Assembly: GCA_031459715.1 (NCBI GenBank)
Contig: JAVKIA010000017.1
Location: 1 to 53,878, forward strand
DNA length: 53,878 bases
Direction of reading: 5' to 3'
Origin: Armatimonadota bacterium
GTDB taxonomy: Bacteria > Sysuimicrobiota > Sysuimicrobiia > Sysuimicrobiales > Humicultoraceae
Positions 2,721 to 47,071 of the stretch are shown here, piece after piece. The translations under genes were made by a program, and so were the position numbers. The notes under the pieces are model-generated. The model saw only the letters and a program-made list of their open reading frames with translations. It was not told the origin of the DNA and did not search any database. Numbering within the stretch: position 1 is the first letter of the stretch; each line of letters opens with the position of its first letter.

Positions 2721-3998
2721 GTGGCGGCGGACCCAAAGACCAGCTATCAGGGCCGGATTCACCTGCTCCAGAAGGAGCTGATGGGGCGCTACTACCAGGA
2801 GCTGACGGCGGCCGCCCGGGACGGTAGTCCCCCGGCCGCCTACATGTTGATCAGCGGCAACCCCGTGGAGCTGGTGCGGGCCTTCGGCATGCTCCCCGTC
2901 TACCCCGAGGTCAACGCCCTGCAGATCGCCGTGAAGAAGCAGGCGCTGCCTTACATCCTCAAGGCCGAAGAGCTGGGCTACTCGGTGGACAACTGTGCCT
3001 ACGTCAAGGCGGACATCGGCCTGTACTTCAGCGGGCGGCAGGCGCCCTTTGGGACCATCCCCGAACCTGCCCTTATCCTGTGCAACTACGTGGGCTGCAA
3101 CGTCTACCTGAACTGGTTCGAGCACCTGAGAGAGTACGCGCGGGCAGAGGTCTTTTTTCTGGACATCCCCTTCGTCCGCGACCCGATGGCACCGCGGCCC
3201 GAGGACCTGGCCTATGTAGTGGCGCAGTTACGGGAGCTGATCTCCGTCTGCGAGCGGATCACCGGACGTCCTCTGGACTGGGAGTACCTGCGCCACATCT
3301 GCGCCCTCTCGGCGAAGACCGGCCAGCTGTGGGCGCAGATCAAGCACCTGACCAAGCACGTCCCCTGCCCCCTGGACGCCTACTTCGACGCCGTCACCCT
3401 CATGGGGCCGCTGTACTGCCTGCGGGGCAGCGAGGAGGGGCTGCGCTTCTTCGAGGAGGCCTACCGCGAGGTCAAGGAGCGCACCGAGCTGGGCCTGGGG
3501 CCGCTGCCCGAGGAGCGCTACCGCTTCGTCATCGAGGGGCCGCCGCCCTGGCCCTACCTGCGGGTCTTCCGCGACCTCTTCTCCCGCTGGGGGGCGGTGG
3601 CCGTTGCATCGACGTACTCCACCGTGGGGGGGCTGTGGGAGTTCGGGTTCGCCCACGACCCTGACCACCCCCTGGAGAGCATCGCCCAGCACATGCTCTA
3701 CTGGAACCTGACCAACCGCGACCTGCTCCGCCGCTACCAGCAGATCCGCCGGTACGTTCAGGAGTGGGGAGCCCACGCCCTGGTCATCCACTCGGTGAAG
3801 AGCTGTCGTCTCTTCAGCGCCGGCCAGGGCGACATGCGGGAGTACTTCAGCCGGGAGCTGGGAGTGCCCACCCTCCTGGTGGAGTCGGACCTGGAGGACC
3901 CCCGCTACTTCTCCGAGGCCCAGATGCGCAACCGCATCGACGCGTTCTTTGAAGCGCTGGAGCACCGCAGGCTGGTGGGCGCGGAGGCCCGGCCGTGA
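2721..3998 (+). CDS. bcrB: Class I benzoyl-CoA reductase, subunit B (BcrB/BadE/BzdO type)
   Basis: Second 2-hydroxyacyl-CoA dehydratase-superfamily subunit, expected to pair with BcrC to hold the iron-sulfur clusters and bind benzoyl-CoA. Cysteines in [16 protein letters not shown] and VKSCRLF sit where the family places cluster ligands. The GTG at 2721 is chosen because GGAGG lies 5 bases upstream. An ATG at 2709 (TGATG overlap with the bcrC stop) would add four residues but lacks a ribosome-binding site. Length, about 425 residues, is normal. The end overlaps the bcrA start (GTGA), so translation is probably coupled. Confidence 0.88.
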
Positions 3999-4858
3999 GG
4001 TTCGCTGCCGGCGTCGACGTCGGCTCCACCCAGACCAAGGCCGTCATCCTGAACGAGGATAGGGAGATCGTCGGCCGTGGCCTGCAGGATACCGGCGCCA
4101 ACATCACTCGGGCGGCTGAACAGACGTTCGGGCAGGCGCTGCGCGATGCGGGCCTGGATCGGGAAGAGGTCCTCTACGTGGTGGGGACGGGATATGGGCG
4201 CTTCCGCGTCACCTTCGGCCACGCCCAGATCACCGAGATCTCCTGTCACGCCAGGGGGGCCGCCTTCCTCTTCCCCCGCACCCGCACCGTGATCGACATG
4301 GGGGGTCAGGACGCCAAGGGGATCAAGGTCGGCCCCGGCGGCGAGGTGATCGACTTCGTCATGAACGACAAGTGCGCTGCCGGCACCGGACGGTTCCTGG
4401 CCAACGCTGCCGACGTCCTGGGCCTCACCCTGGACGCCATCGGGCCGCTCTCCCTGCGGGGCGCTCATCCGGTGCGTCTCTCCACCGTCTGCACGGTCTT
4501 CGTGGAGTCCGACATCATGGCCTACCTGGCGCAGGGCAAGCAGGTGGAGGACATCCTGGCCGGCGTGCACAGCGCCATCGCCGCACGCACTATCTCCCTG
4601 GTGCGGCGGGTGGGGCTGGAACCGGAGATCACCTTTACCGGCGGGGTCAGCCGGAACGTGGGGATGGTGCGGGCGCTGGAGGAGAAGCTGGGGGGAGCCA
4701 TCAACGTCAGCACCGAGGCGCACTACATGGGGGCGTTGGGCGCCGCACTCTTCGCCCTGGAGCGGGCGTTGCACATGGCCCCAGCGATGTCGGTGGAGGT
4801 GGCGGCGGGCCCTCCGGCCTGCGGACCGGGGGCGCAGAGCAGGGGTGCAGGGGGATGA
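3995..4858 (+). CDS. bcrA: Benzoyl-CoA reductase ATPase subunit A (BcrA/BadF/BzdQ type)
   Basis: Electron-activating ATPase of the BadF/BadG/BcrA/BcrD family. It couples ATP hydrolysis to low-potential electron transfer from ferredoxin to BcrBC. Visible motifs: phosphate-1 loop [10 protein letters not shown] (6-15), VGTGYGR (63-69), [11 protein letters not shown] (101-111), and Cys127 (NDKCAAGTG) and Cys166 ([11 protein letters not shown]). These match the two cysteines that hold the interfacial [4Fe-4S] cluster in HgdC-type activators. The GTG start overlaps the bcrB stop and the end overlaps bcrD by four bases. The last 25 residues are a Pro/Gly/Ala-rich tail of no evident function. Confidence 0.9.
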
Positions 4859-5661
4859 GGCTGGTCGCCGGCCTCGACCTGGGGTCCCGGTTCACCAAGG
4901 CCGTGCTCCTCAATGAGGAGCAGGCGGTGGTGGCCCGGGCCGCTGTGCGCACCCGGCCCGACTTTCCCGCGGTGGCCCGGGAGGCGCTGGAGCGCGCCCT
5001 GGAGGCCGCAGGATCCGAGGCCGCGGCGGTGGACTATGTGGCCACCACCGGTTTTGGCCGGGGTAACGTGCCGTTCCGGGACATCCAGATCACCGAGATC
5101 ACCTGCATCGCCCATGCGGCGGCGCGGCTCTATCCCCAGGCGCGCTTTGTGCTGGACATCGGCTTTCAGAGCACGCGGGCCGTGCGCACCGAGCCGGGTG
5201 GACGGGTGGCCGAGTTCGCCACCAACGACAAGTGCGCCGCCGGCGCCGGGGGGTTCCTGGAGCGGGCCGCCCGCTACCTGGAGGTGCCGCTGGAGCAGCT
5301 GGGGCGGCTCTCCCTGCGGGCGGCCACTCCCCAGTCCATCAGCAGCATCTGCGCCGTACTGGCGGAGACGGAGATTATCAACCACCTCACCGCGGGAGTC
5401 GCCCTGGAGGACATCGTGGGGGGAATCCACCGATCGCTGGCCGGGCGGGCACACGCGCTTCTGCGCCGGATCAGGCTGGACGGTGCAGTGGTCTTCCTGG
5501 GCGGCGTCGCCGTCCAGGAAGGCATGGTGCAGGCCCTGAGAGAGGTGCTGGGTGTGCCTGTGGAGGTGCCCCAGGCCCCAGAGTCCGTCTGCGCCCTGGG
5601 CGCGGCGCTGCTGGGGCTGCGACGGCACGCCGGAACAATGGCGGCGGGGAGGGTCCGGTAG
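4855..5661 (+). CDS. bcrD: Benzoyl-CoA reductase ATPase subunit D (BcrD/BadG/BzdP type)
   Basis: Second BadF/BcrA-type ATPase, 268 residues, expected to dimerise with BcrA around a shared [4Fe-4S] cluster. Cys127 (NDKCAAGAG) and Cys166 ([11 protein letters not shown]) fall at the same positions as in BcrA. The N-terminal [10 protein letters not shown] loop and TTGFGRG are present. The segment that reads [11 protein letters not shown] in BcrA reads [11 protein letters not shown] here, so the GGQD motif is lost, suggesting the two ATP sites are not equivalent. The ATG overlaps the bcrA stop (ATGA) and the stop overlaps the next gene by one base. Confidence 0.87.
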
Positions 5662-6329
5662 TGGGGCTACCCGCGGAGCGCAAGCAGGTCCTGCAGTGGC
5701 TGGCCAGCATCCTGGCGCTGGCTGGCGACGGCGCTTTCGCCGTCGACGGCGGGCAGCGCATCTTCCTCTGGAACAGCGCCGCTCAGGCGATGCTGGGACA
5801 CGCGGCCAGCGAAGTGATCGGCCGTCGCTGCCACGAGGTCTTGGACGGGCGAGACGCCTCCGGCAACCTCCTGTGCTGCGCGCGCTGCCCGCTGATGGTG
5901 ATGGCTCAGCGCGGCGAGCGCGTCGCCAGCCGGGACATGGCGGTCACCCCCCGGGTGGGCGAACCCCGGTGGCTGAACATCTCCACGCTGGTCCTGCCCA
6001 TGGGGATGGGCCTGGTACACTTCTTCCGCGACGTCACCGGCGAGCGGGCGCGACGGCGCCTCACCGAGGAGGCGCTGGCCGGCCGGCTGCAGGCGGCGGA
6101 GGCTACCATGGCTCCCCCGGGGCTTACGCGGCGGGAGGTGGAGGTCCTCAGGTGTCTGGTCCGGGGGGCCTCCACCCGGGAGATCGCCAGGACGCTGTAC
6201 ATTTCCCCTCTGACCGCGCGCAACCACATTCAGCGGATCCTGCGCAAGCTGGGGGCGGCAACGCGGGCTGAGGCTGTAGCCATTGCCCTGGGCGTCCGCC
6301 CCGACCCCACGGCGTCCCTGGTCAATTAG
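5661..6329 (+). CDS. PAS-domain LuxR-type transcriptional regulator
   Basis: A 222-residue regulator with an N-terminal PAS fold (about 15-120; FLWNSAAQAMLGH and VIGRRCHEVLDGRD are typical) and a C-terminal LuxR helix-turn-helix (about 150-210; LTRREVEVLRCL, STREIARTLYIS, TARNHIQRILRKLG). No receiver domain and no membrane segment, so it is a one-component cytoplasmic sensor. Four cysteines, C57 and the C72-C73-x2-C76 cluster, sit in the PAS region and could bind a metal or sense redox state; that is inference. The GTG at 5661 is preceded by GGGAGGG. It sits directly after bcrD, so control of the bcr or neighbouring operon is likely. Confidence 0.8.
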   Translation: MGLPAERKQVLQWLASILALAGDGAFAVDGGQRIFLWNSAAQAMLGHAASEVIGRRCHEVLDGRDASGNLLCCARCPLMVMAQRGERVASRDMAVTPRVGEPRWLNISTLVLPMGMGLVHFFRDVTGERARRRLTEEALAGRLQAAEATMAPPGLTRREVEVLRCLVRGASTREIARTLYISPLTARNHIQRILRKLGAATRAEAVAIALGVRPDPTASLVN

Positions 6330-8269: not shown

Positions 8270-9557
8270 GCGGGAGTGCGCCGACCGGGTCAGTCTGGTC
8301 CAGGTGCAGCTCGAACGGCTGCGGGCGGTCCTGGCGCGCCTTGCGGCTCGCGTGCCCTTCTACCGGCAGCGGCTGGCTGCGGCCCGCATCGACGCCGATG
8401 GCATCACTGCCCTGGAGGACCTCCGTCGGCTTCCCTTAACCACCAAGGACGACCTGCGCCGCCTCTATCCCTTCGGCCTCTTTGCCACGGACTCGGACGA
8501 ACCGGTGGAGCTGCATTGTTCTTCGGGTACGACCGGGACCGCCACCCTGGTGGGCTACACCCGCAGGGACCTGGAGATCTGGTCGGAGGTGATGGCCCGC
8601 ACGCTGGCGGCCGGGGGCGTGCGCCCCGGCGACCTGGTGCACAACGCCTACGGCTACGGGCTGTTTACCGGGGGGCTGGGGTTTCACTACGGCGCACTGC
8701 GCCTGGGGGCGCGCGTCCTGCCCATCTCCTCGGGCCAGACCGCCCGCCAGGTGAGGCTCCTGCGGGAGCTGGGGGCCACTGTGCTGGCGTGTACCCCCTC
8801 GTATGCGCTGCATCTGGCTGAGGTGGTGGAAGAGGCGGGGATGGGTCCTCTGTCTCTGCGCGTGGGGTTGCTGGGCGCCGAGCCCTGGAGCGAGGGGATG
8901 CGCAGGGAGATCGAGCGGCGCCTGGGGATCACGGCGGTGGACGTTTACGGTCTCAGCGAGATCATCGGGCCCGGGGTGGCCTGCGAGTGCGCCGAGGCTC
9001 GCCAGGGGTTGCACATCAACGAGGACCACTTCCTGGCGGAGGTGGTCGACCCTGCCTCCGGGGAGGTGCTGCCCGACGGGGAGACCGGCGAGCTGGTCCT
9101 GACCACCCTGACCAAAGAGGCCACGCCGCTTTTGCGCTACCGCACCGGCGACCTCACGGCGCTGGACCGCGCCCCCTGCCCCTGCGGCCGGCAGCTCGCC
9201 CGGATGGCCCGGGTGCGCGGCCGGGTGGACGACATGCTGGTGGTGCGGGGGGTTAACGTCTTTCCCGCCGACGTGGAGGCGGTGCTCACCTCCCTGGGAG
9301 AGCTGGCCCCGGCCTATCAGCTCATCGTGGACCGCCAGACGACCCTGGACGAGCTGGAGGTACAGGTGGAGGCGCGGGAGTGGCTCACCCCCGCTGCGGG
9401 CGAAGGCCTGGCCATGCGCGTGGCAGCGGCCATCCGAGACCAGCTGGGACTGCGCACCCGTGTCACCGTCCTGCCGCCCAGGCAGCTTCCGCGCAGCGAA
9501 GGCAAGGCGCTGCGGGTCGTGGACCGCCGCGGCCTCAAGGAGGGCGTCAGGAGATGA
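8253..9557 (+). CDS. paaK: Phenylacetate-CoA ligase (PaaK family), copy 1
   Basis: AMP-forming ligase activating phenylacetate or a related arylacetate to its CoA thioester. The 434-residue protein has the ATP loop SSGTTGTATLVGYT (about 89-102), NAYGYGLFTGG, GAEPWSEGMR, YGLSEIIGPG, YRTGDL and the C-terminal hinge region VRGRVDDMLVVRGVNVFP. It overlaps the LeuD-like gene by 17 bases and the LeuA-like gene by four (ATGA). A second paralogue lies at 25832. Substrate range (phenyl-, hydroxyphenyl- or indoleacetate, or benzoate) cannot be read from sequence; the hpa genes and IorAB nearby favour arylacetates. Confidence 0.85.
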   Translation: MIWDPERECADRVSLVQVQLERLRAVLARLAARVPFYRQRLAAARIDADGITALEDLRRLPLTTKDDLRRLYPFGLFATDSDEPVELHCSSGTTGTATLVGYTRRDLEIWSEVMARTLAAGGVRPGDLVHNAYGYGLFTGGLGFHYGALRLGARVLPISSGQTARQVRLLRELGATVLACTPSYALHLAEVVEEAGMGPLSLRVGLLGAEPWSEGMRREIERRLGITAVDVYGLSEIIGPGVACECAEARQGLHINEDHFLAEVVDPASGEVLPDGETGELVLTTLTKEATPLLRYRTGDLTALDRAPCPCGRQLARMARVRGRVDDMLVVRGVNVFPADVEAVLTSLGELAPAYQLIVDRQTTLDELEVQVEAREWLTPAAGEGLAMRVAAAIRDQLGLRTRVTVLPPRQLPRSEGKALRVVDRRGLKEGVRR

Positions 9558-10819
9558 GAGAGCAGGGCGGGGGACGGCAGTGGATCTACGAGTGGAACGC
9601 GGGCCGCGGAGCGCCTCGCCCCGCGCGGCGCGTGGAGGTAAACGACGAGACGCTGCGCGATGGCCTGCAGAGCCCCTCGGTGATCCATCCCCCCCTGGAG
9701 ACGAAGTGCCAGATCCTCCACCTGATGGCGGAGCTGGGGATCGAGAGCGCCAATATCGGCTATCCGGCAGCGGGCCCCCGGGCTCTGGAGGACGTTGTCC
9801 GACTGGCGCAGGAGATCGGGCGCGCCCGGCTACCCATCCGGCCCAACTGCGCCGGCCGCACCACCGAAGCGGACATCACGCCCATCGCTGAGGCCCAGGA
9901 CCGCTCCGGCGTGGCCATCGATGCGGCCCTGTTCATCGGCTCCAGCCCCATCCGCCAGTACGCCGAGGGCTGGGGCCTGGACTTCCTGCGGCGCACCACC
10001 GAGCAGGCGGTCACCCTGGCCCGGCGGCTGGGGCTGGAGGTCATGTTCGTCACCGAGGACACCACCCGGGCACGTCCCGCGCACCTGCGCGCCCTCTACA
10101 CCACGGCTATCGAGTGCGGCGCCCGGCGCATCTGCCTGGCGGACACGGTGGGGCACGCCACGCCCTGGGGCGTGCGGCGGCTGGTGCGCTTCATGCGTCG
10201 GGTCGTGGAGGGCACCGGTAGGGAGATCAAGATAGACTGGCACGGGCACCGTGACCGGGGGTTGGACCTGATCAACTCCCTGGCGGCTATCGAGGCGGGC
10301 GCGGACCGGATCCACGCCTGCGCCCTGGGGATCGGCGAGCGCGTGGGCAACACCCCCATGGACCTGCTGCTGGTCAACCTGAAGCTCCTCGGCTGGCGCG
10401 ACGCCGACCTCTCGGCGCTGCCGCGGTACTGCGAGACGGTGGCTCGGGCTGTAGGTCTGCCCATCCCCTGCAACTACCCGGTGGTGGGGAAGGACGCCTT
10501 CGAGACCAGCACCGGCGTCCACGCCGCGGCCATCCTCAAGGCCTACCGCAAGGGGCACCACTGGCTGGCCAACCGGATCTACAGCGGTGTGCCGGCGGAG
10601 GAGGTGGGCCGCCAGCAGGTGATCTCTGTGGGGCCGATGAGCGGTCAGGCCAACGTGGTCTGCTGGCTGCAGCGGCGGGGGATCGAGCCGGTGCCCAGGT
10701 TGGTGGAGGCGATCCTGGACGCGGCCAAGGCGTCCGACCGGGTGCTGCGGGACGAGGAGATCCTCTCGGTGATTCTGGAGCAGATCTCCCCGCTGCCCCA
10801 GGGCGGGGTGTCGGCGTGA
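9554..10819 (+). CDS. LeuA-like (2-isopropylmalate/homocitrate synthase family) condensing enzyme
   Basis: DRE-TIM metallolyase-family enzyme, 421 residues, predicted to condense acetyl-CoA with a 2-oxoacid to a 2-substituted malate. NDETLRDGLQSPS near residue 30 carries the catalytic Arg and metal Asp. DWHGHRDRG supplies the two metal-binding His residues, and GIGERVGNTPMD is the family loop. There is little room for the LeuA C-terminal allosteric domain, as in feedback-insensitive catabolic or secondary-metabolic members. The ATG overlaps the ligase stop. Between LeuC/LeuD-like genes and 2-oxoacid oxidoreductases it may extend an aryl-2-oxoacid such as phenylpyruvate. Citramalate, homocitrate or true 2-isopropylmalate synthesis are alternatives. 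Confidence 0.75.
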   Translation: MREQGGGRQWIYEWNAGRGAPRPARRVEVNDETLRDGLQSPSVIHPPLETKCQILHLMAELGIESANIGYPAAGPRALEDVVRLAQEIGRARLPIRPNCAGRTTEADITPIAEAQDRSGVAIDAALFIGSSPIRQYAEGWGLDFLRRTTEQAVTLARRLGLEVMFVTEDTTRARPAHLRALYTTAIECGARRICLADTVGHATPWGVRRLVRFMRRVVEGTGREIKIDWHGHRDRGLDLINSLAAIEAGADRIHACALGIGERVGNTPMDLLLVNLKLLGWRDADLSALPRYCETVARAVGLPIPCNYPVVGKDAFETSTGVHAAAILKAYRKGHHWLANRIYSGVPAEEVGRQQVISVGPMSGQANVVCWLQRRGIEPVPRLVEAILDAAKASDRVLRDEEILSVILEQISPLPQGGVSA

Positions 10820-42066: not shown

Positions 42067-42876
42067 CTACCCCCTCCGCGCCGCGGCGACGATCAGCTCG
42101 GCCGCAGCCGCGGGAAAGGGGGCACCCAGGACGTAGCAGCGCGCGCCGCGGAGCAGTCGGCTGAACCCGGCGAAGGCATCTTCCAGGCGGTGCGCGTAGC
42201 GCAGGGAGGAGTGCTGCTGCTCTCCCAGGTACATCAGGAGCTCCGCGCGGGAGAAAGGCGCCAGGCCTCCGCCATCCGGCCGCAGCAGCACGAACGCCTC
42301 CACCGGGACCTCACCCGCCGCCCGCGCCGCGGGGAGGTAGAAACGAACGCCGCCCTCCCGCGCGACCTCTGCGCCCCGGGGAAGAGCCCCGACCGCCTGG
42401 GCGGTCCAGGGTTTGATGGCCATGGGCAGCGCAAACGGCGCCGCCGCCCCCGTGGCCGGATCAAGCAGCGTGATCTCGTCGGTGAGGTAGGCCGCCCCGT
42501 GCCGGACCAGGATGGCCACCGTGGATGTCTTCCCCGCGCCACTTTCCCCGATGACGATCCAGGCCCGCCCGTCGACGGCCACTGCGCCGGCGTGGATGAA
42601 GAGCAGGTGGCGCAGCAGGGCCGCGCCGGTTGCGCCCACCTGCCCCAGCAGCAGAGGGAGCCACCCGGTCTGTGGCAGCGTGACCGACCACAGAACCTTG
42701 CCGTCCACGGTCCCCGTGGCCAGGCGGTCCTCCTCGGCCACGGTGACGTCCAGGGGAGGGAGGGGCTCCGCCGCGCACAGCGAGCTTAGGGCCGGGGCCA
42801 GAGCGGCGGCTATCCGGTCTGGCGCGGCGATGCGGATCTGCCAGCCGGGCAGGGTCAGGGTGTGTCGCGCGGGCAT
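42067..42876 (-). CDS. HprK-related P-loop kinase/ATP-binding protein
   Basis: A 269-residue protein with the HPr-kinase-type core: LFIHAGAVAVDG before Walker A GESGAGKT (110-117), then LTDEITLLD. Genuine HprK also needs an N-terminal DRTGG domain and a PTS partner; neither is seen. Such orphan HprK-like proteins recur beside PqqD-family genes in peptide-modification or HPr-rel loci of unknown role. The ATG forms TGATG with the PqqD-like stop (GTG at 42879 is an alternative). It is the last gene of the minus-strand operon and ends three bases from the convergent amidase gene. Confidence 0.75.
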   Translation of the reverse strand: MPARHTLTLPGWQIRIAAPDRIAAALAPALSSLCAAEPLPPLDVTVAEEDRLATGTVDGKVLWSVTLPQTGWLPLLLGQVGATGAALLRHLLFIHAGAVAVDGRAWIVIGESGAGKTSTVAILVRHGAAYLTDEITLLDPATGAAAPFALPMAIKPWTAQAVGALPRGAEVAREGGVRFYLPAARAAGEVPVEAFVLLRPDGGGLAPFSRAELLMYLGEQQHSSLRYAHRLEDAFAGFSRLLRGARCYVLGAPFPAAAAELIVAAARRG

Positions 42877-43142
42877 CACGGAGGCTCGACCCAGCGCAGG
42901 GCTGCGCGCCGCCAGCGGCCATCTTCCTCCCGGAGCAGGCCCGCGGCCGCCAGGCTCTGCAGCGATTCCGCAAGGTGCTCCTGCGGCCCGCCGAGGCTGG
43001 CGGTCACCTCCGCCGTCGTCCGTCCCTCGCAGGTCTCGAAGACCCGCCGGGTTGCCGGGTCCAGGAGGATAAGGCGCGCCTGCGCCACGTCCAGCAGGAC
43101 GACCTCCCCGTCGAGCTCTGCGGCCAGGAAGGGCGCGCTCAC
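42876..43142 (-). CDS. PqqD-family (RiPP recognition element-like) small protein
   Basis: An 88-residue winged-helix-type protein. The run of strands then helices (VVLLDVAQARLILLDPATRRV, then TTAEVTASLGG, ESLQSLAAAGLL) is the PqqD pattern. In RiPP pathways such domains bind a precursor peptide leader; no radical SAM or cyclodehydratase gene is nearby. The GTG overlaps the sortase stop (GTGA) and the stop overlaps the HprK-like gene. Confidence 0.72.
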   Translation of the reverse strand: MSAPFLAAELDGEVVLLDVAQARLILLDPATRRVFETCEGRTTAEVTASLGGPQEHLAESLQSLAAAGLLREEDGRWRRAALRWVEPP

Positions 43143-43798
43143 GGCGCGGCGGCCGGGGTCACCCCGCGCAGGACTCCCAGGACGACCAGTCGGAAGGCGG
43201 CGCTGTAGGCCGGGGTGCAGGTGACCAGGGCGATGCCACGCTCCCCAAGCGGCGCCGAGAGCACTTCCACCCGCTCGGGGCGCACGACCTGCGACTCTAC
43301 CACCGCATACCTGTAGCGGCGCCCCCCGTACTCCACCAAGATTACGTCCCCGCGGCGCAGGGTGTCCAGGCGGAAGAAGGGCGCTCCATAGGTGGTGCGG
43401 TGGCCGGCGATACCCAGGACCCCGGGGCGGTCGGGAAGCGGGGTCCAGGTGATCCGGCCGACCCCAAACCTGCGCAGGTGCTCGGGGGTCGCCCCTTCGG
43501 GGACGTAGCGCCGCAGTTCCAACCGGGGGATCGTCAGTACCATCCCCTGGGAGGCGGTACCGTCCGCCGCCGGCCGCCCGCCCTGCGCGGGTTCCCCGGT
43601 GGTTACCGCGCGCTCGCTCTGTGCAGACTCCCAGGCTGCCAGCGCCGCGGTCTGCGCCGGCCCCACCGCCACGGCTGTGTAAGCGATCCACCCAAAGGGA
43701 GCGAGCACCAGCAGCACGCCCGCGGCAATGCACAGGGTTCCTGCCATCCGCAGGGCCCTGCGGAAAGGCGGAGGCTCCTTGATACCGTAGACGATCAC
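43139..43798 (-). CDS. Sortase, class E/D-like
   Basis: Membrane-anchored transpeptidase of 219 residues: one N-terminal transmembrane segment (about 19-45), a linker, then the sortase barrel with His133 (IAGHRTTYGAPFFRLD), Cys194 (LVTCTP) and Arg203 (AAFRLVVLG). The GHRTTYGAPF context is typical of class E enzymes. The GTG at 43798 overlaps the stop of the upstream gene, whose product ends in an LPYGG-type sorting signal, so enzyme and substrate are translated together. It attaches a protein to the cell envelope or catalyses a related transpeptidation. Confidence 0.85.
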   Translation of the reverse strand: MIVYGIKEPPPFRRALRMAGTLCIAAGVLLVLAPFGWIAYTAVAVGPAQTAALAAWESAQSERAVTTGEPAQGGRPAADGTASQGMVLTIPRLELRRYVPEGATPEHLRRFGVGRITWTPLPDRPGVLGIAGHRTTYGAPFFRLDTLRRGDVILVEYGGRRYRYAVVESQVVRPERVEVLSAPLGERGIALVTCTPAYSAAFRLVVLGVLRGVTPAAAP

Positions 43799-44313
43799 GA
43801 CCTGGCGCCCGCGCGCCGCAGGACGATCCCCAGAGAGATCAGACCGACCCCGCCGGCAAACGGGATCCACAGGTTCGCCCCGCCGTAGGGCAATACTTCG
43901 ACCGGGAGCAGCCTGGGGCGCACCGGACGCACGGCCTCAGCCAGCGGGCGGACGACCGGCCGGGCCGGGGGAGTGGCCACTGCCCTGGGGACGGCGGGCA
44001 GGACGACGGGGGTCACGCGAACCACTGGCGGCGCCGCTGGAGGCGGAACTGCCGGTGCGAGGGGCGTGGCCGGCGTGTGGGGTGTGACCACCGGCGTGGG
44101 CGGAGGGACGATGGCCTCAGGAGGCGGCGCCGGGGGAGCCACAAGCAGGGGTGCGGCGGCCAGGATGGGCAGGAGGATTCCGATGATCGGCAGGATAGGC
44201 AGCCACGGCGCGGGAGGCCCCGCCGGGGGAGGAGGGGGAGGAGGAATGGGAGAGACCACCTCCACCCCTGTGGCCAGGGGAATCGACGCGATCTTCACTC
44301 CCCGAGGCTGCAA
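43795..44313 (-). CDS. Pro-rich membrane protein with LPYGG-type sorting signal, probable sortase substrate
   Basis: The 172-residue protein has an N-terminal motif VKIASIPLATGVEVVSP (6-22), a poly-Pro stretch, a first hydrophobic segment (about 38-60), an extended Pro/Ala/Val/Thr region (61-138), then LPYGG (141-145), a hydrophobic segment (about 148-165) and the basic end RRAGARS. That last arrangement is a cell-wall sorting signal, with GG replacing the usual TG. TTG start at 44313; an internal GTG at 44298 preceded by GGGGA is an alternative. The N-terminal motif recurs in the protein encoded at 44480-44782. The sortase gene overlaps its stop. Confidence 0.7.
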   Translation of the reverse strand: MQPRGVKIASIPLATGVEVVSPIPPPPPPPAGPPAPWLPILPIIGILLPILAAAPLLVAPPAPPPEAIVPPPTPVVTPHTPATPLAPAVPPPAAPPVVRVTPVVLPAVPRAVATPPARPVVRPLAEAVRPVRPRLLPVEVLPYGGANLWIPFAGGVGLISLGIVLRRAGARS

Positions 44314-44410
44314 CCCTATCAGCCCCCGGCGGAAAGGGAATTCTTGCGCTCAATACCTTTCGCCAGAGAAGCCCCCCTCTTTGATAACACAGATATGGGA
44401 TCAGGCGCCA

Positions 44411-44455
44411 CGGACCAAAAGCAGTCTCCGAGCCGGTTATCCGGCCCGGAGACTG
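44411..44455 (-). terminator. Rho-independent-type terminator or attenuator
   Basis: Hairpin with a 9-base perfect outer stem (CAGTCTCCG/CGGAGACTG), one mismatch, a 5-base inner stem (GCCGG/CCGGC) and a 4-base loop. On the minus strand it is followed by CTTTTGG. It lies 25 bases past the stop of the 100-residue membrane protein and upstream of the Pro-rich protein, so it separates or attenuates transcription within this locus. Confidence 0.7.
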
Positions 44456-44479
44456 GAAGAATGCCGCCGGGACGTCCTG

Positions 44480-44782
44480 CTAGCGCATCAGGTTCAGCCG
44501 TTCCGACGGCGGTACCTCCAGCGGCCCGGTTGCCACCACCGCTGGAGCAGCCGGCTGGGACGGGGCCCGGGTCTGCTCTTCCTGAGGAGGTCCGGTCAAC
44601 AGGGCTCCTCCCATCCCCAGGGCCAGCAGCAGCAGGCCGATCAGTCCTGCCGCCCCCGCCCCTCCACCGCCGGACGCAGGCGGTGCCGGAGCGGGGCCGG
44701 GTTCGGGGAGCGGCGAGGTGTTCTGCACGGATGTCGCCAGCGGGATAGAAGCGATCCTGATACCACCTGGCAATGCAGGCAT
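44480..44782 (-). CDS. Small single-pass membrane protein sharing an N-terminal motif with the sortase substrate
   Basis: The 100-residue protein has the motif IRIASIPLATSVQNTSP (8-24), a Pro/Gly-rich linker, one hydrophobic segment (about 42-64) and a polar Pro-rich tail ending PPSERLNLMR. Start ATG at 44782, with AAAGGGG about 7 bases upstream; longer in-frame versions run into the divergent promoter region. No known domain is recognised. The shared motif with the Pro-rich protein (44313 start) is nearly identical over ten residues and probably faces the cytoplasm. No sorting signal is present. Confidence 0.65.
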   Translation of the reverse strand: MPALPGGIRIASIPLATSVQNTSPLPEPGPAPAPPASGGGGAGAAGLIGLLLLALGMGGALLTGPPQEEQTRAPSQPAAPAVVATGPLEVPPSERLNLMR

Positions 44783-44926: not shown

Positions 44927-45742
44927 ATGGCCCGGGAAGTACACGTAGCTGTGGTCGAAACCTGGAACCTCGGCAAGACCTTTCACCCGCCCCCGTGGCC
45001 CCTCTCTCTGGCAGGACGGATCGCCGCGCGCCCCGTGCGTGCGCTGGCCGGTATCTCCCTGCGCATCGAGCCGGGGGAGGTCTTCGGTCTGGTGGGACCC
45101 AACGGCGCCGGGAAGACCACGCTGCTCAAGCTCCTGGCGACGTTGCTGTTGCCCTCAGAGGGGGCCGCCCGGGTGGACGGCGCGGACCTGGTGAGCCAGG
45201 CGGGGATGGTACGGCGGCGGGTGGGGCTGGCCACCGGGGACGAGCGCACTTTCTACTGGAGGCTCACGGGGCGGGAGAACCTGGAATTCTTCTGTGGCCT
45301 GCGCGGGCAATCCCCGGCGGTGGCGCGTCGGCGGGCCGCGGAGGTCCTGGAACGCGTGGACCTGGTGGAGCAGGCGGACGAGACCGTAGGGCGGTACTCC
45401 ACGGGGATGCGCCAGCGTCTGGCCATTGCCCGGGCCCTGCTGGACGATCCCCCGGTCCTGCTGCTGGACGAACCCACGCGCAGCCTTGACCCTGTGGCCG
45501 CCGCCCGCGTGCAGACCCTCATCCGCCGCCTCTCCCGCGAGGAGGGGCGCACCGTGCTGCTGGCCACGCACCAGCTGGGCGAGGCTGCCACTGCCTGCGA
45601 CCGCATCGGCATCCTCGTGGCCGGGGCGCTGCGTGACGTGCTGGCGCCGCAGGCGGTGGGGGAGGATGGTCTGCGCCGGCGCTACCACGCCCTGGTGGAG
45701 GCTACGGATGAGCGTCCTCAATCAGTTGCGGGCCTTTCTTAG
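44927..45742 (+). CDS. ABC-2-type exporter ATP-binding protein
   Basis: ABC ATPase, 271 residues: Walker A GPNGAGKTT, signature YSTGMRQRL, Walker B VLLLDEPTRSLDP and switch His in ATHQLGEA. The N-terminal NLGKTFHPPPWPLSLAGRI insertion before the first strand is like that of NatA/CcmA-type polysaccharide or drug exporters. Divergent from the small membrane-protein gene, with 144 bases between starts; the permease gene overlaps its end by 35 bases. It may belong functionally to the sortase locus. Confidence 0.83.
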   Translation: MAREVHVAVVETWNLGKTFHPPPWPLSLAGRIAARPVRALAGISLRIEPGEVFGLVGPNGAGKTTLLKLLATLLLPSEGAARVDGADLVSQAGMVRRRVGLATGDERTFYWRLTGRENLEFFCGLRGQSPAVARRRAAEVLERVDLVEQADETVGRYSTGMRQRLAIARALLDDPPVLLLDEPTRSLDPVAAARVQTLIRRLSREEGRTVLLATHQLGEAATACDRIGILVAGALRDVLAPQAVGEDGLRRRYHALVEATDERPQSVAGLS

Positions 45743-46520
45743 ACGGGACTACCTCCTGGCCAGCTACTCCCGCCTCGCCCTGGCCTGGCAGGTCTTCACC
45801 GTCGTCCTGGTGGCGCCTACGCTGTACTACCTGGGACGGCTCATCCGGCCGGCTGCCTCGCCGCACCTGGCCCCCTACGGCGGAGACTACTTCGCCTTCG
45901 CCGTGCTGGGGGTAGCGCTCTTCGGGCTGCTGGCCGCGTCCATGGCCGCTGCGGCCGCAGCGATCCGTCAGGAGCAGATGATCGGCACCCTGGAGGTCCT
46001 GGTCGCTGCACCCATCTCATTGCTCACCCTGGCGGCGGGGCTCTCGCTGTGGAGCGTCCTGCTCGCCGCCGCGCAGACGCTCCTCTACCTGGTGCTGGGC
46101 GTGGTCGTCTTCGGAATCGACCTGGGCCGGGCCAATCTCGCCGCGGCCGGCATCGCCGTGATCCTGGCGGTGGCCACGTTCGCGGCCATGGGGCTGTTCG
46201 CGGCGGCCTTCGTCCTGGTTTACAGGCACGCCGATCCGTTCAGCAGCATCTTCGCCGGGCTTTCGGCCCTTCTGGGCGGGGTCTTCTACCCGCCAAGCGT
46301 CCTGCCCCCGGTGCTGCGGGTGCTGGCGGAGTTCGTCCCGCTGACGCATGCGCTGCGGGCAGTCCGCCTGGCCGTGCTGGAAGGGGCCGGGCTCGGTGCG
46401 CTGCGCCGTGAACTACTCGTGCTGCTCCTCTTTGCCGTGGTGCTCCTGCCGCTGGCGACGGTGGTCTTCCGCGGGGCGGTGCAGTACGCCAGGCGAGCGG
46501 GGACGCTGAGCGCCTACTGA
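45708..46520 (+). CDS. ABC-2-type exporter permease
   Basis: The 270-residue membrane protein has about six hydrophobic segments of the ABC-2 type (YYLGRLIRP loop, IRQEQMIGTLEVLVAAPIS, and LGGVFYPPSVLPPVLRVLAEFVPLTHALRAVR). It pairs with the overlapping ATPase. The exported substrate is unknown. Confidence 0.82.
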   Translation: MSVLNQLRAFLRRDYLLASYSRLALAWQVFTVVLVAPTLYYLGRLIRPAASPHLAPYGGDYFAFAVLGVALFGLLAASMAAAAAAIRQEQMIGTLEVLVAAPISLLTLAAGLSLWSVLLAAAQTLLYLVLGVVVFGIDLGRANLAAAGIAVILAVATFAAMGLFAAAFVLVYRHADPFSSIFAGLSALLGGVFYPPSVLPPVLRVLAEFVPLTHALRAVRLAVLEGAGLGALRRELLVLLLFAVVLLPLATVVFRGAVQYARRAGTLSAY

Positions 46521-46537: not shown

Positions 46538-47071
46538 TCAGTCCCCGAAGTTCTCCACCACCACCACGCCGTAGGGTCCGCCGTCGATCACCCCGATGCC
46601 CACCAGACGGTAATCCGGCAGCAGGATGTTCTCCCGGTGTGCCTCGCTGGTCATCAGGGCCTCATGCGCCTCCCGGATGGTGGCGGCGTAGGCGATGTTC
46701 TCACCGACCAGGCGCACGCGCACTCCCCGCCGCAACACTCGTTGCTGCGGCCCCAGGCCGCTGCGGTCCACGTGGGAGAGGTAGCCGAAGGCGACCATCT
46801 CCAGGCCGTGGGCGCGGGCCACGCTGCGGATGGTGGCGTGAGGCATGAGCGGGGCCAGCCCCGCGGCTGCACGCTCATTGTTGACCAGATTGAGCATGGT
46901 CACCTCGCGCTCCCAGCTGCTCTGCGCCGCCGTGGTGCGAAAGGGCAGGGGGTAGGTCGCCCACGCCGTGGGTGCTCCCAGCACCACCGGGTCCGGGGAG
47001 AGGATCGGGGCCGGGTTGATGAACGTGGCCGCGGCCGCCACCAGTACGAGGAGGGATACGGGTCGCCACAT
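46538..47071 (-). CDS. CAP/SCP (YkwD-like) domain secreted protein
   Basis: The 177-residue exported protein has a hydrophobic signal region at 6-24, then the CAP domain (about 55-177): NLVNNERAAAGLAPL, ARAHGLEM, FGYLSHVDRSG, GENIAYA and HRENILLPDYRLVGIGV. The two histidines and two acidic residues of the CAP cavity are present. GGAGG lies 5 bases before the ATG. The family occurs in spore and envelope proteins of unknown chemistry. It converges with the ABC permease gene. Confidence 0.83.
   Translation of the reverse strand: MWRPVSLLVLVAAAATFINPAPILSPDPVVLGAPTAWATYPLPFRTTAAQSSWEREVTMLNLVNNERAAAGLAPLMPHATIRSVARAHGLEMVAFGYLSHVDRSGLGPQQRVLRRGVRVRLVGENIAYAATIREAHEALMTSEAHRENILLPDYRLVGIGVIDGGPYGVVVVENFGD

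Follow-up and report, generated by a model that had tools for sequence, protein, structure and literature searches.

What does a short N-terminal segment do when it is shared by two otherwise different membrane proteins encoded near a PqqD-like gene? The locus lies in the window, meaning the whole 53,878-nucleotide stretch that was analysed, which is contig C17 of a 2.76 Mb Ca. Sysuimicrobiota (CSP1-3) genome from a little-known soil and sediment bacterium. A sequence-only reading had proposed that the segment acts as a recognition tag on the two proteins, called A and B here, whose features are:

44480 to 44782, minus strand: protein A, 100 aa, with tag, Pro/Gly linker, one transmembrane segment and short tail (GPLEVPPSERLNLMR)
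44711 to 44782, minus strand: tag of A, residues 1-24 (MPALPGGIRIASIPLATSVQNTSP), in which the invariant Ser is S23
44597 to 44647, minus strand: hydrophobic segment of A, hydropathy 2.26
44422 to 44455, minus strand: terminator-like hairpin between A and B, 15-bp stem, tail CTTTTGGTCC
43795 to 44313, minus strand: protein B, 172 aa, with tag, Pro linker, first transmembrane segment (TM1), Pro-rich stalk and sorting signal
44248 to 44313, minus strand: tag of B, residues 1-22 (MQPRGVKIASIPLATGVEVVSP), in which the invariant Ser is S21
44137 to 44187, minus strand: TM1 of B, placed by hydropathy, with AxA-like sites at its end followed by Pro
43966 to 44016, minus strand: conserved stalk element of B (VTPVVLPAVPRAVATPP)
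43807 to 43893, minus strand: sorting signal of B, with LPYGGANLW, a second transmembrane segment (TM2) and an Arg-Arg tail

Protein A starts at an ATG at 44782, with AAAGGGG ~8 nt upstream, and ends at 44480, while B runs from a TTG at 44313 to 43795. Both frames are where they had been reported to be, and the pattern claimed for them, [IV]-[RK]-IASIPLAT-x-V-x3-SP followed by a Pro/Gly linker and a hydrophobic segment, was found exactly as written. Local alignment of the first 45 residues of A and B gave a score of 103, while none of 2000 shuffles exceeded 63, ruling out a chance origin of the likeness. The shared stretch contains ~8.7 synonymous differences over 17 aligned codons (pS 0.58), which rules out a recent duplication as its source and indicates that the protein sequence is what is conserved. 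That the two proteins diverge completely after this segment was nearly right, except for a faint likeness of the A tail (GPLEVPPSER) to the conserved stalk element of B, which is only suggestive of homology at shuffle p = 0.013 for the window protein and 0.19 for its homologue in the closest relative (G001) of the window genome (G000). Protein A is limited to the genus of the window, with G001 carrying the only homologue, and the general component of the locus is B. The strong hairpin may mean that A is expressed separately from the B-sortase-PqqD-HprK operon; an identical scan of G001 found no equivalent hairpin between its A and B genes.

Recurrence of the segment was followed through 386 genomes, including 43 from Sysuimicrobiota (G000-G042) that all belong to a single order, the next genomes on the list sharing only the domain. 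The segment profile gave 13 matches at E<1e-8 (two in G000 and two in G001), and all 13 lay within one gene cassette beside PqqD-like, HprK-like and sortase genes, as the sequence-only reading would predict, although the top matches are the model's own members and the search is thus informative chiefly for the absence of the tag elsewhere. Outside the cassette only four matches fell below 0.01, with E-values of 0.002-0.005, which is approximately the chance expectation for these 386 genomes. The idea that the segment is a commonplace signal-peptide or lipoprotein feature was rejected, since good matches in these genomes occurred in cassettes only, and the B homologues, one apiece in 11 genomes, carry the segment rather than lacking it. 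The tag of A was matched by profile A7 at 44699-44782 (E 9.2e-13), and an HMM made with no sequences other than A and B found G001_B (6e-10), G001_A (2e-5) and, in a different family, G020_B (2e-5), with the next match at E = 0.19 (465,299 six-frame residues).

All B proteins share one architecture, starting 1-5 residues ahead of an R-G-[GV]-like step, with a segment of 22-25 residues containing many alternating hydrophobics, then a Pro/Gly linker of 14-43 nearly uncharged residues, TM1, a Pro/Ala-rich stalk with P[IV]VL..GP in most, and finally LP[FY][TG]G..[LI]W, TM2 and an Arg-rich end. Linkers of this length and lack of charge indicate that the tag would be free of the membrane. The Ser at the end of the segment is invariant in 12 of 12 aligned tags, usually as SP, and tag-bearing proteins number one or two per genome, always within the cassette. 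Two sequence types of tag were found, type I (IASIPLA) and type II (VQPxxF), with no cross-detection by HMM: models of type I alone detect only type I (family f1 and G020), and models of type II alone only type II (family f7). The equivalence of the two types rests on position and architecture. In the stalk, the conserved element of B is 80% identical to that of G001 compared to 50% for the linker, and family f7 has P[IV]VL..GP. Counterparts of this element, TP[IV]VLPAVPRA[VI]ATP (43966-44016 in the window), were also seen in other families.

The C-terminus of B identifies it as a predicted sortase substrate, since LPYGG/LPFTG..W, TM2 and RR are present in 11 genomes with a sortase gene adjoining. 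The signal of B was matched by profile A8 (E 1.6e-16), and relatives carry LPFTGANLW. Each genome has a single B-type LPxxG signal, which suggests a dedicated pair of sortase and substrate. The genes around A and B are:

43139 to 43798, minus strand: class-E-like sortase (PF04203, 6.7e-25), sharing its first 4 nt with the end of B
42876 to 43142, minus strand: PqqD-like protein, 88 aa, a candidate stand-alone RRE
42067 to 42879, minus strand: HprK-like kinase, 270 aa, with H96, G111, G114, G116, K117, T118, D134 and E135
44927 to 45742, plus strand: ABC transporter ATPase (DrrA-like), divergent (PF00005, 3e-33)
45708 to 46520, plus strand: ABC-2 permease (PF01061)
46538 to 47071, minus strand: secreted CAP/YkwD-type protein, a usual neighbour (PF00188, TIGR02909)

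A PqqD-type protein is encoded close by, as had been noted, and in one operon with B, but the gene directly downstream of B encodes the sortase, followed by the PqqD-like and HprK-like genes. In the window, overlaps of 4 nt link B to the sortase, the sortase to the PqqD-like gene and the PqqD-like gene to the kinase, and the first of these is also present in most relatives. A complete locus was found in 11 of the 43 genomes of the phylum, and a twelfth (G006) is interrupted at a contig end, with ABC, PF14907 and CAP genes on a separate second contig. Strong matches to the HprK-like kinase (E<1e-90) occur in exactly 12 genomes, 11 of which have the sortase and the tag, and the PqqD-like gene is present in 11 of 11 cassettes having B and the sortase, so that the invariant core is B, the class-E-like sortase, the PqqD-like protein and the HprK-like kinase. 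The ABC ATPase gene is kept in most cassettes, and a PF14907 gene follows the permease in nine; the G016 locus stops at a contig end. Cassettes without PF14907 are those of G000, where the sole PF14907 gene is on a different contig in an unrelated glycan-type locus, and G020, whose cassette is the smallest, consisting of B, sortase, PqqD-like, HprK-like and CAP genes with neither ABC nor PF14907. A hidden small precursor between the genes was rejected, as no other small ORF at the cassette is conserved across families, and no RNA family was found in the region. Beyond the phylum, the cassette did not appear among 76 other sortase relatives in GTDB species genomes, in whose retrieved flanks PqqD, HprK and PF14907 were not found.

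As the candidate partner of the tag, the PqqD-like protein was compared to known RREs. Its PF05402 score of 16.7 bits in the window is under the gathering cut-off of 23.4, compared to 21.3 in G001 and 25.5 in G038, and PF05402 is the top Pfam match in G001, G034 and G038. TIGR04353 does not match the window protein. An AF2 model built with eight homologues (pLDDT 92.3) has the order bbb-aaa-bbb, with an N-terminal three-strand sheet as in RREs. TbiB1 with its leader was the top full-length solved match by Foldseek (TM 0.61-0.63 over 82 columns), alongside a sactipeptide thioether enzyme, and it was also first in a sequence profile search against the PDB (E 0.0011). The sactipeptide enzyme carries an RRE. 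With modest E-values, the combined evidence supports a predicted RRE of the B1 type. These same results bear on whether the protein could be a winged-helix DNA-binding regulator, with PqqD and HprK regulating the operon and the tag being unrelated to either. The top Pfam match in the window is HTH_20 (2.3e-4, under cut-off), and partial winged-helix matches lead the Foldseek results by E-value, many matches being winged-helix domains; this resemblance and the low window score also count against docking of the tag on the protein. A regulator is nevertheless very unlikely given the RRE-type sheet, the TbiB1 match, the PF05402 matches of relatives and the repeated occurrence of PqqD-HprK pairs in RiPP-type clusters of the phylum.

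The AF2 model of the kinase (pLDDT 94.6) matches the PEPCK/HprK fold, and the top NCBIfam match of the protein is TIGR04352 (HprK_rel_A) at 1.5e-13, with 50.5 bits compared to a curated cut-off of 200 bits. In the lasso precursor kinase BsfK, the catalytic residues are H148, G163, G166, G168, K169, S170, D186 and D187 (PMC10368454), and this H-G-G-G-K-S-D-D set is matched in residue and spacing by 12 of 12 cassette kinases, with T in place of S and E or D as the final residue. All 12 therefore display the His, the P-loop GxxGxGK[ST] and the Asp-Asp/Glu pair at BsfK spacing that characterize HprK-like peptide kinases. In that lasso pathway, the RRE BsfB1 greatly speeds BsfK, a core peptide lacking the leader is left unphosphorylated, and the phosphate is placed on Ser3 of the core, shortly after the leader (PMC10368454).

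The cassette resembles lasso clusters with a kinase and a nucleotidyltransferase (paeninodin, pseudomycoidin and bsf of Bradymonas) in that it combines a stand-alone RRE with an HprK-like kinase of identical catalytic residues, an ABC transporter and, in most members, PF14907, and in that the N-terminal segment of its substrate is conserved. In contrast to these clusters, it lacks a B2 protease, a cyclase and a YxxPxL leader, its substrate is a membrane and sortase protein of 170-220 aa, and its kinases form a separate clade. The B2 transglutaminase-like leader peptidase (PF13471) has no match in G000 and is present in G005 and G013, no asparagine-synthetase-like cyclase was among the neighbouring genes scanned, and no small precursor with a YxxPxL leader and Gly-initiated core was found at the cassette; identity as a lasso cluster was rejected on these grounds. 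As a lasso leader motif the tag has only the Pro-x5-Gly spacing of type II, which is too weak. Direct descent from the lasso clusters of the phylum was likewise unsupported, since the tree puts the cassette kinases (98/97) and the G005, G013 and G037 lasso kinases (100/100) in different clades, and in BLASTP the PqqD-like protein of the window did not match the B1 of G005. Lasso clusters with a kinase were located at L168:3210-8980 (G005), L169:1077-7802 (G013) and L172:1-2050 (G037), with PF14907 in the G013 cluster and close by in G005, where the precursor is at L168:5434-5640 with a YKPPELMELG leader. A PqqD-family protein is also paired with an HprK-like kinase in the HPr-rel-A and SynChlorMet cassettes (TIGR04352/TIGR04353 and TIGR04248/TIGR04249), but all matches here are far under the curated cut-offs, and we know of no sortase or LPxTG partner in those cassettes. 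In the open PMC literature, no description was found of a sortase substrate linked with an RRE and an HprK kinase.

Restricted to the cassette as it is, the N-terminal segment is best read as a recognition tag, because an RRE fold is predicted for the PqqD-like protein and the kinase shares its catalytic residues with lasso precursor kinases. The proposal is only partly supported by these sequence comparisons and models, as there are two tag types and YxxPxL is absent. We consider it slightly better than an even proposition that the tag of B docks on the RRE, which would present B, together with A where it exists, to the kinase within a cassette for a sortase-anchored surface protein. The mechanism we infer, from tag binding through phosphorylation and its site to the order of steps and the biological role, would begin with B as a bitopic precursor whose short N-terminal tag lies in the cytoplasm and is joined to TM1 through a flexible, uncharged linker of Pro and Gly. 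Outside the cytoplasm would follow the Pro-rich stalk and, at the C-terminus, the LPxxG signal to be cut by the protein's own sortase. The stand-alone RRE would bind the tag as an additional beta-strand, as lasso B1 does with a leader, and deliver B, along with its short paralogue A, to the HprK-like kinase, either ahead of membrane insertion or once this has taken place. The kinase would then phosphorylate the precursor, with the invariant Ser at the end of the tag as the most plausible site (S21 of B and S23 of A), PF14907 where present may extend the phosphate (cf. the pseudomycoidin report), and the dedicated sortase would anchor the stalk of B after the kinase step. The nucleotidyltransferase of lasso clusters, which by our own reading belongs to PF14907, attaches hexoses to the phosphate (PMC8498205).

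Conservation of the tag among relatives could equally be explained by a different partner. Docking on the sortase or on the ABC transporter would fit the invariance of the sortase and its direct adjacency to B, or the usual position of the divergent transporter beside B, yet G020 has the tag without an ABC transporter, and sortase relatives without PqqD/HprK nearby (G007, G028 and G031:C65) have no tag, although no sorting signal was recognised next to those sortases either; we regard both partners as improbable. The sortase itself is closest to the class E sortases of Actinobacteria, which also supply its nearest named relatives outside the phylum, with a match to NF033747 of 7e-30 that is under that model's cut-off. 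In Streptomyces, the class E sortase SrtE1 has the substrate LAXTG (PMC5148588), unlike the cassette sortase, whose single predicted substrate has LPYGG/LPFTG. In two loci, L030 (G007) 8409-10481 and L027 (G031) 3888-6042, a class-E-like sortase adjoins a CAP/YkwD gene with no PqqD/HprK, so the sortase-CAP association extends beyond the cassette.

The principal rival does without a docking partner and treats the tag as a YSIRK-like extended signal-peptide element that steers Sec-dependent surface proteins towards a site in the membrane or a partner in secretion, with PqqD and HprK acting elsewhere. YSIRK-type motifs adjoin the hydrophobic core, and a genome has several proteins that carry them. 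Like YSIRK/GxxS and KxYKxGKxW signal peptides, the tag is a conserved N-terminal motif on a sortase substrate, and such motifs on LPxTG proteins have well-known pre-translocation roles (e.g. PMC5962339). The tag differs in being separated from TM1 by the long, nearly uncharged linker of 14-43 residues, and in occurring on one or two proteins per genome, in the cassette only and always linked to the RRE and kinase genes. Judged by eye in the B alignment, the AxA-like sites after TM1 mostly have Pro next, which disfavours signal peptidase, and together these features make a trafficking signal unlikely.

With signal peptidase impeded by these Pro residues, the tag would stay on the protein, whereas if TM1 is cleaved the modified tag would be lost from the mature protein. 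In the former case B would remain uncleaved after TM1 and reach from the cytoplasm into the wall, with TM1 as its hold in the membrane and a covalent link to the wall made by its own sortase, and its tag would be phosphorylated by the RRE-guided HprK-type kinase. A RiPP-type modification module would then have been repurposed as a trans-envelope tether or signalling device, an outcome that we consider improbable.

Docking of the tag on the RRE is made more plausible by other PqqD/HprK loci of the phylum, where small exported proteins with a short conserved N-terminus and divergent low-complexity tails adjoin, a pattern that suggests PqqD/HprK pairs often serve exported proteins. In G040 (L166), two small exported proteins encoded in tandem, in frames from 5618 and 6484, begin with a conserved TRRALIxxGWxxPAV..AFA[EG]Y stretch, and G042 (L167) has one exported protein with this type of N-terminus at 1414-1668. 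These proteins have divergent Gly/Ser/Thr-rich tails, are encoded upstream of PqqD and HprK-like genes, and are possibly a further tag family of similar kind. In a different phylum, a locus of G090 (L173, 5274-8817) contains PqqD, HprK and PF14907-like genes, with a small TAT-like protein and exopolysaccharide-type genes as neighbours.

Leader recognition by RREs has so far been known from small natural-product precursors. If the proposed docking is true, RRE-guided modification reaches beyond natural products to a sortase-anchored surface protein, in a compact cassette with a single substrate per genome in most species, and substrates for other PqqD/HprK pairs would be findable through short conserved N-termini on adjoining membrane proteins.
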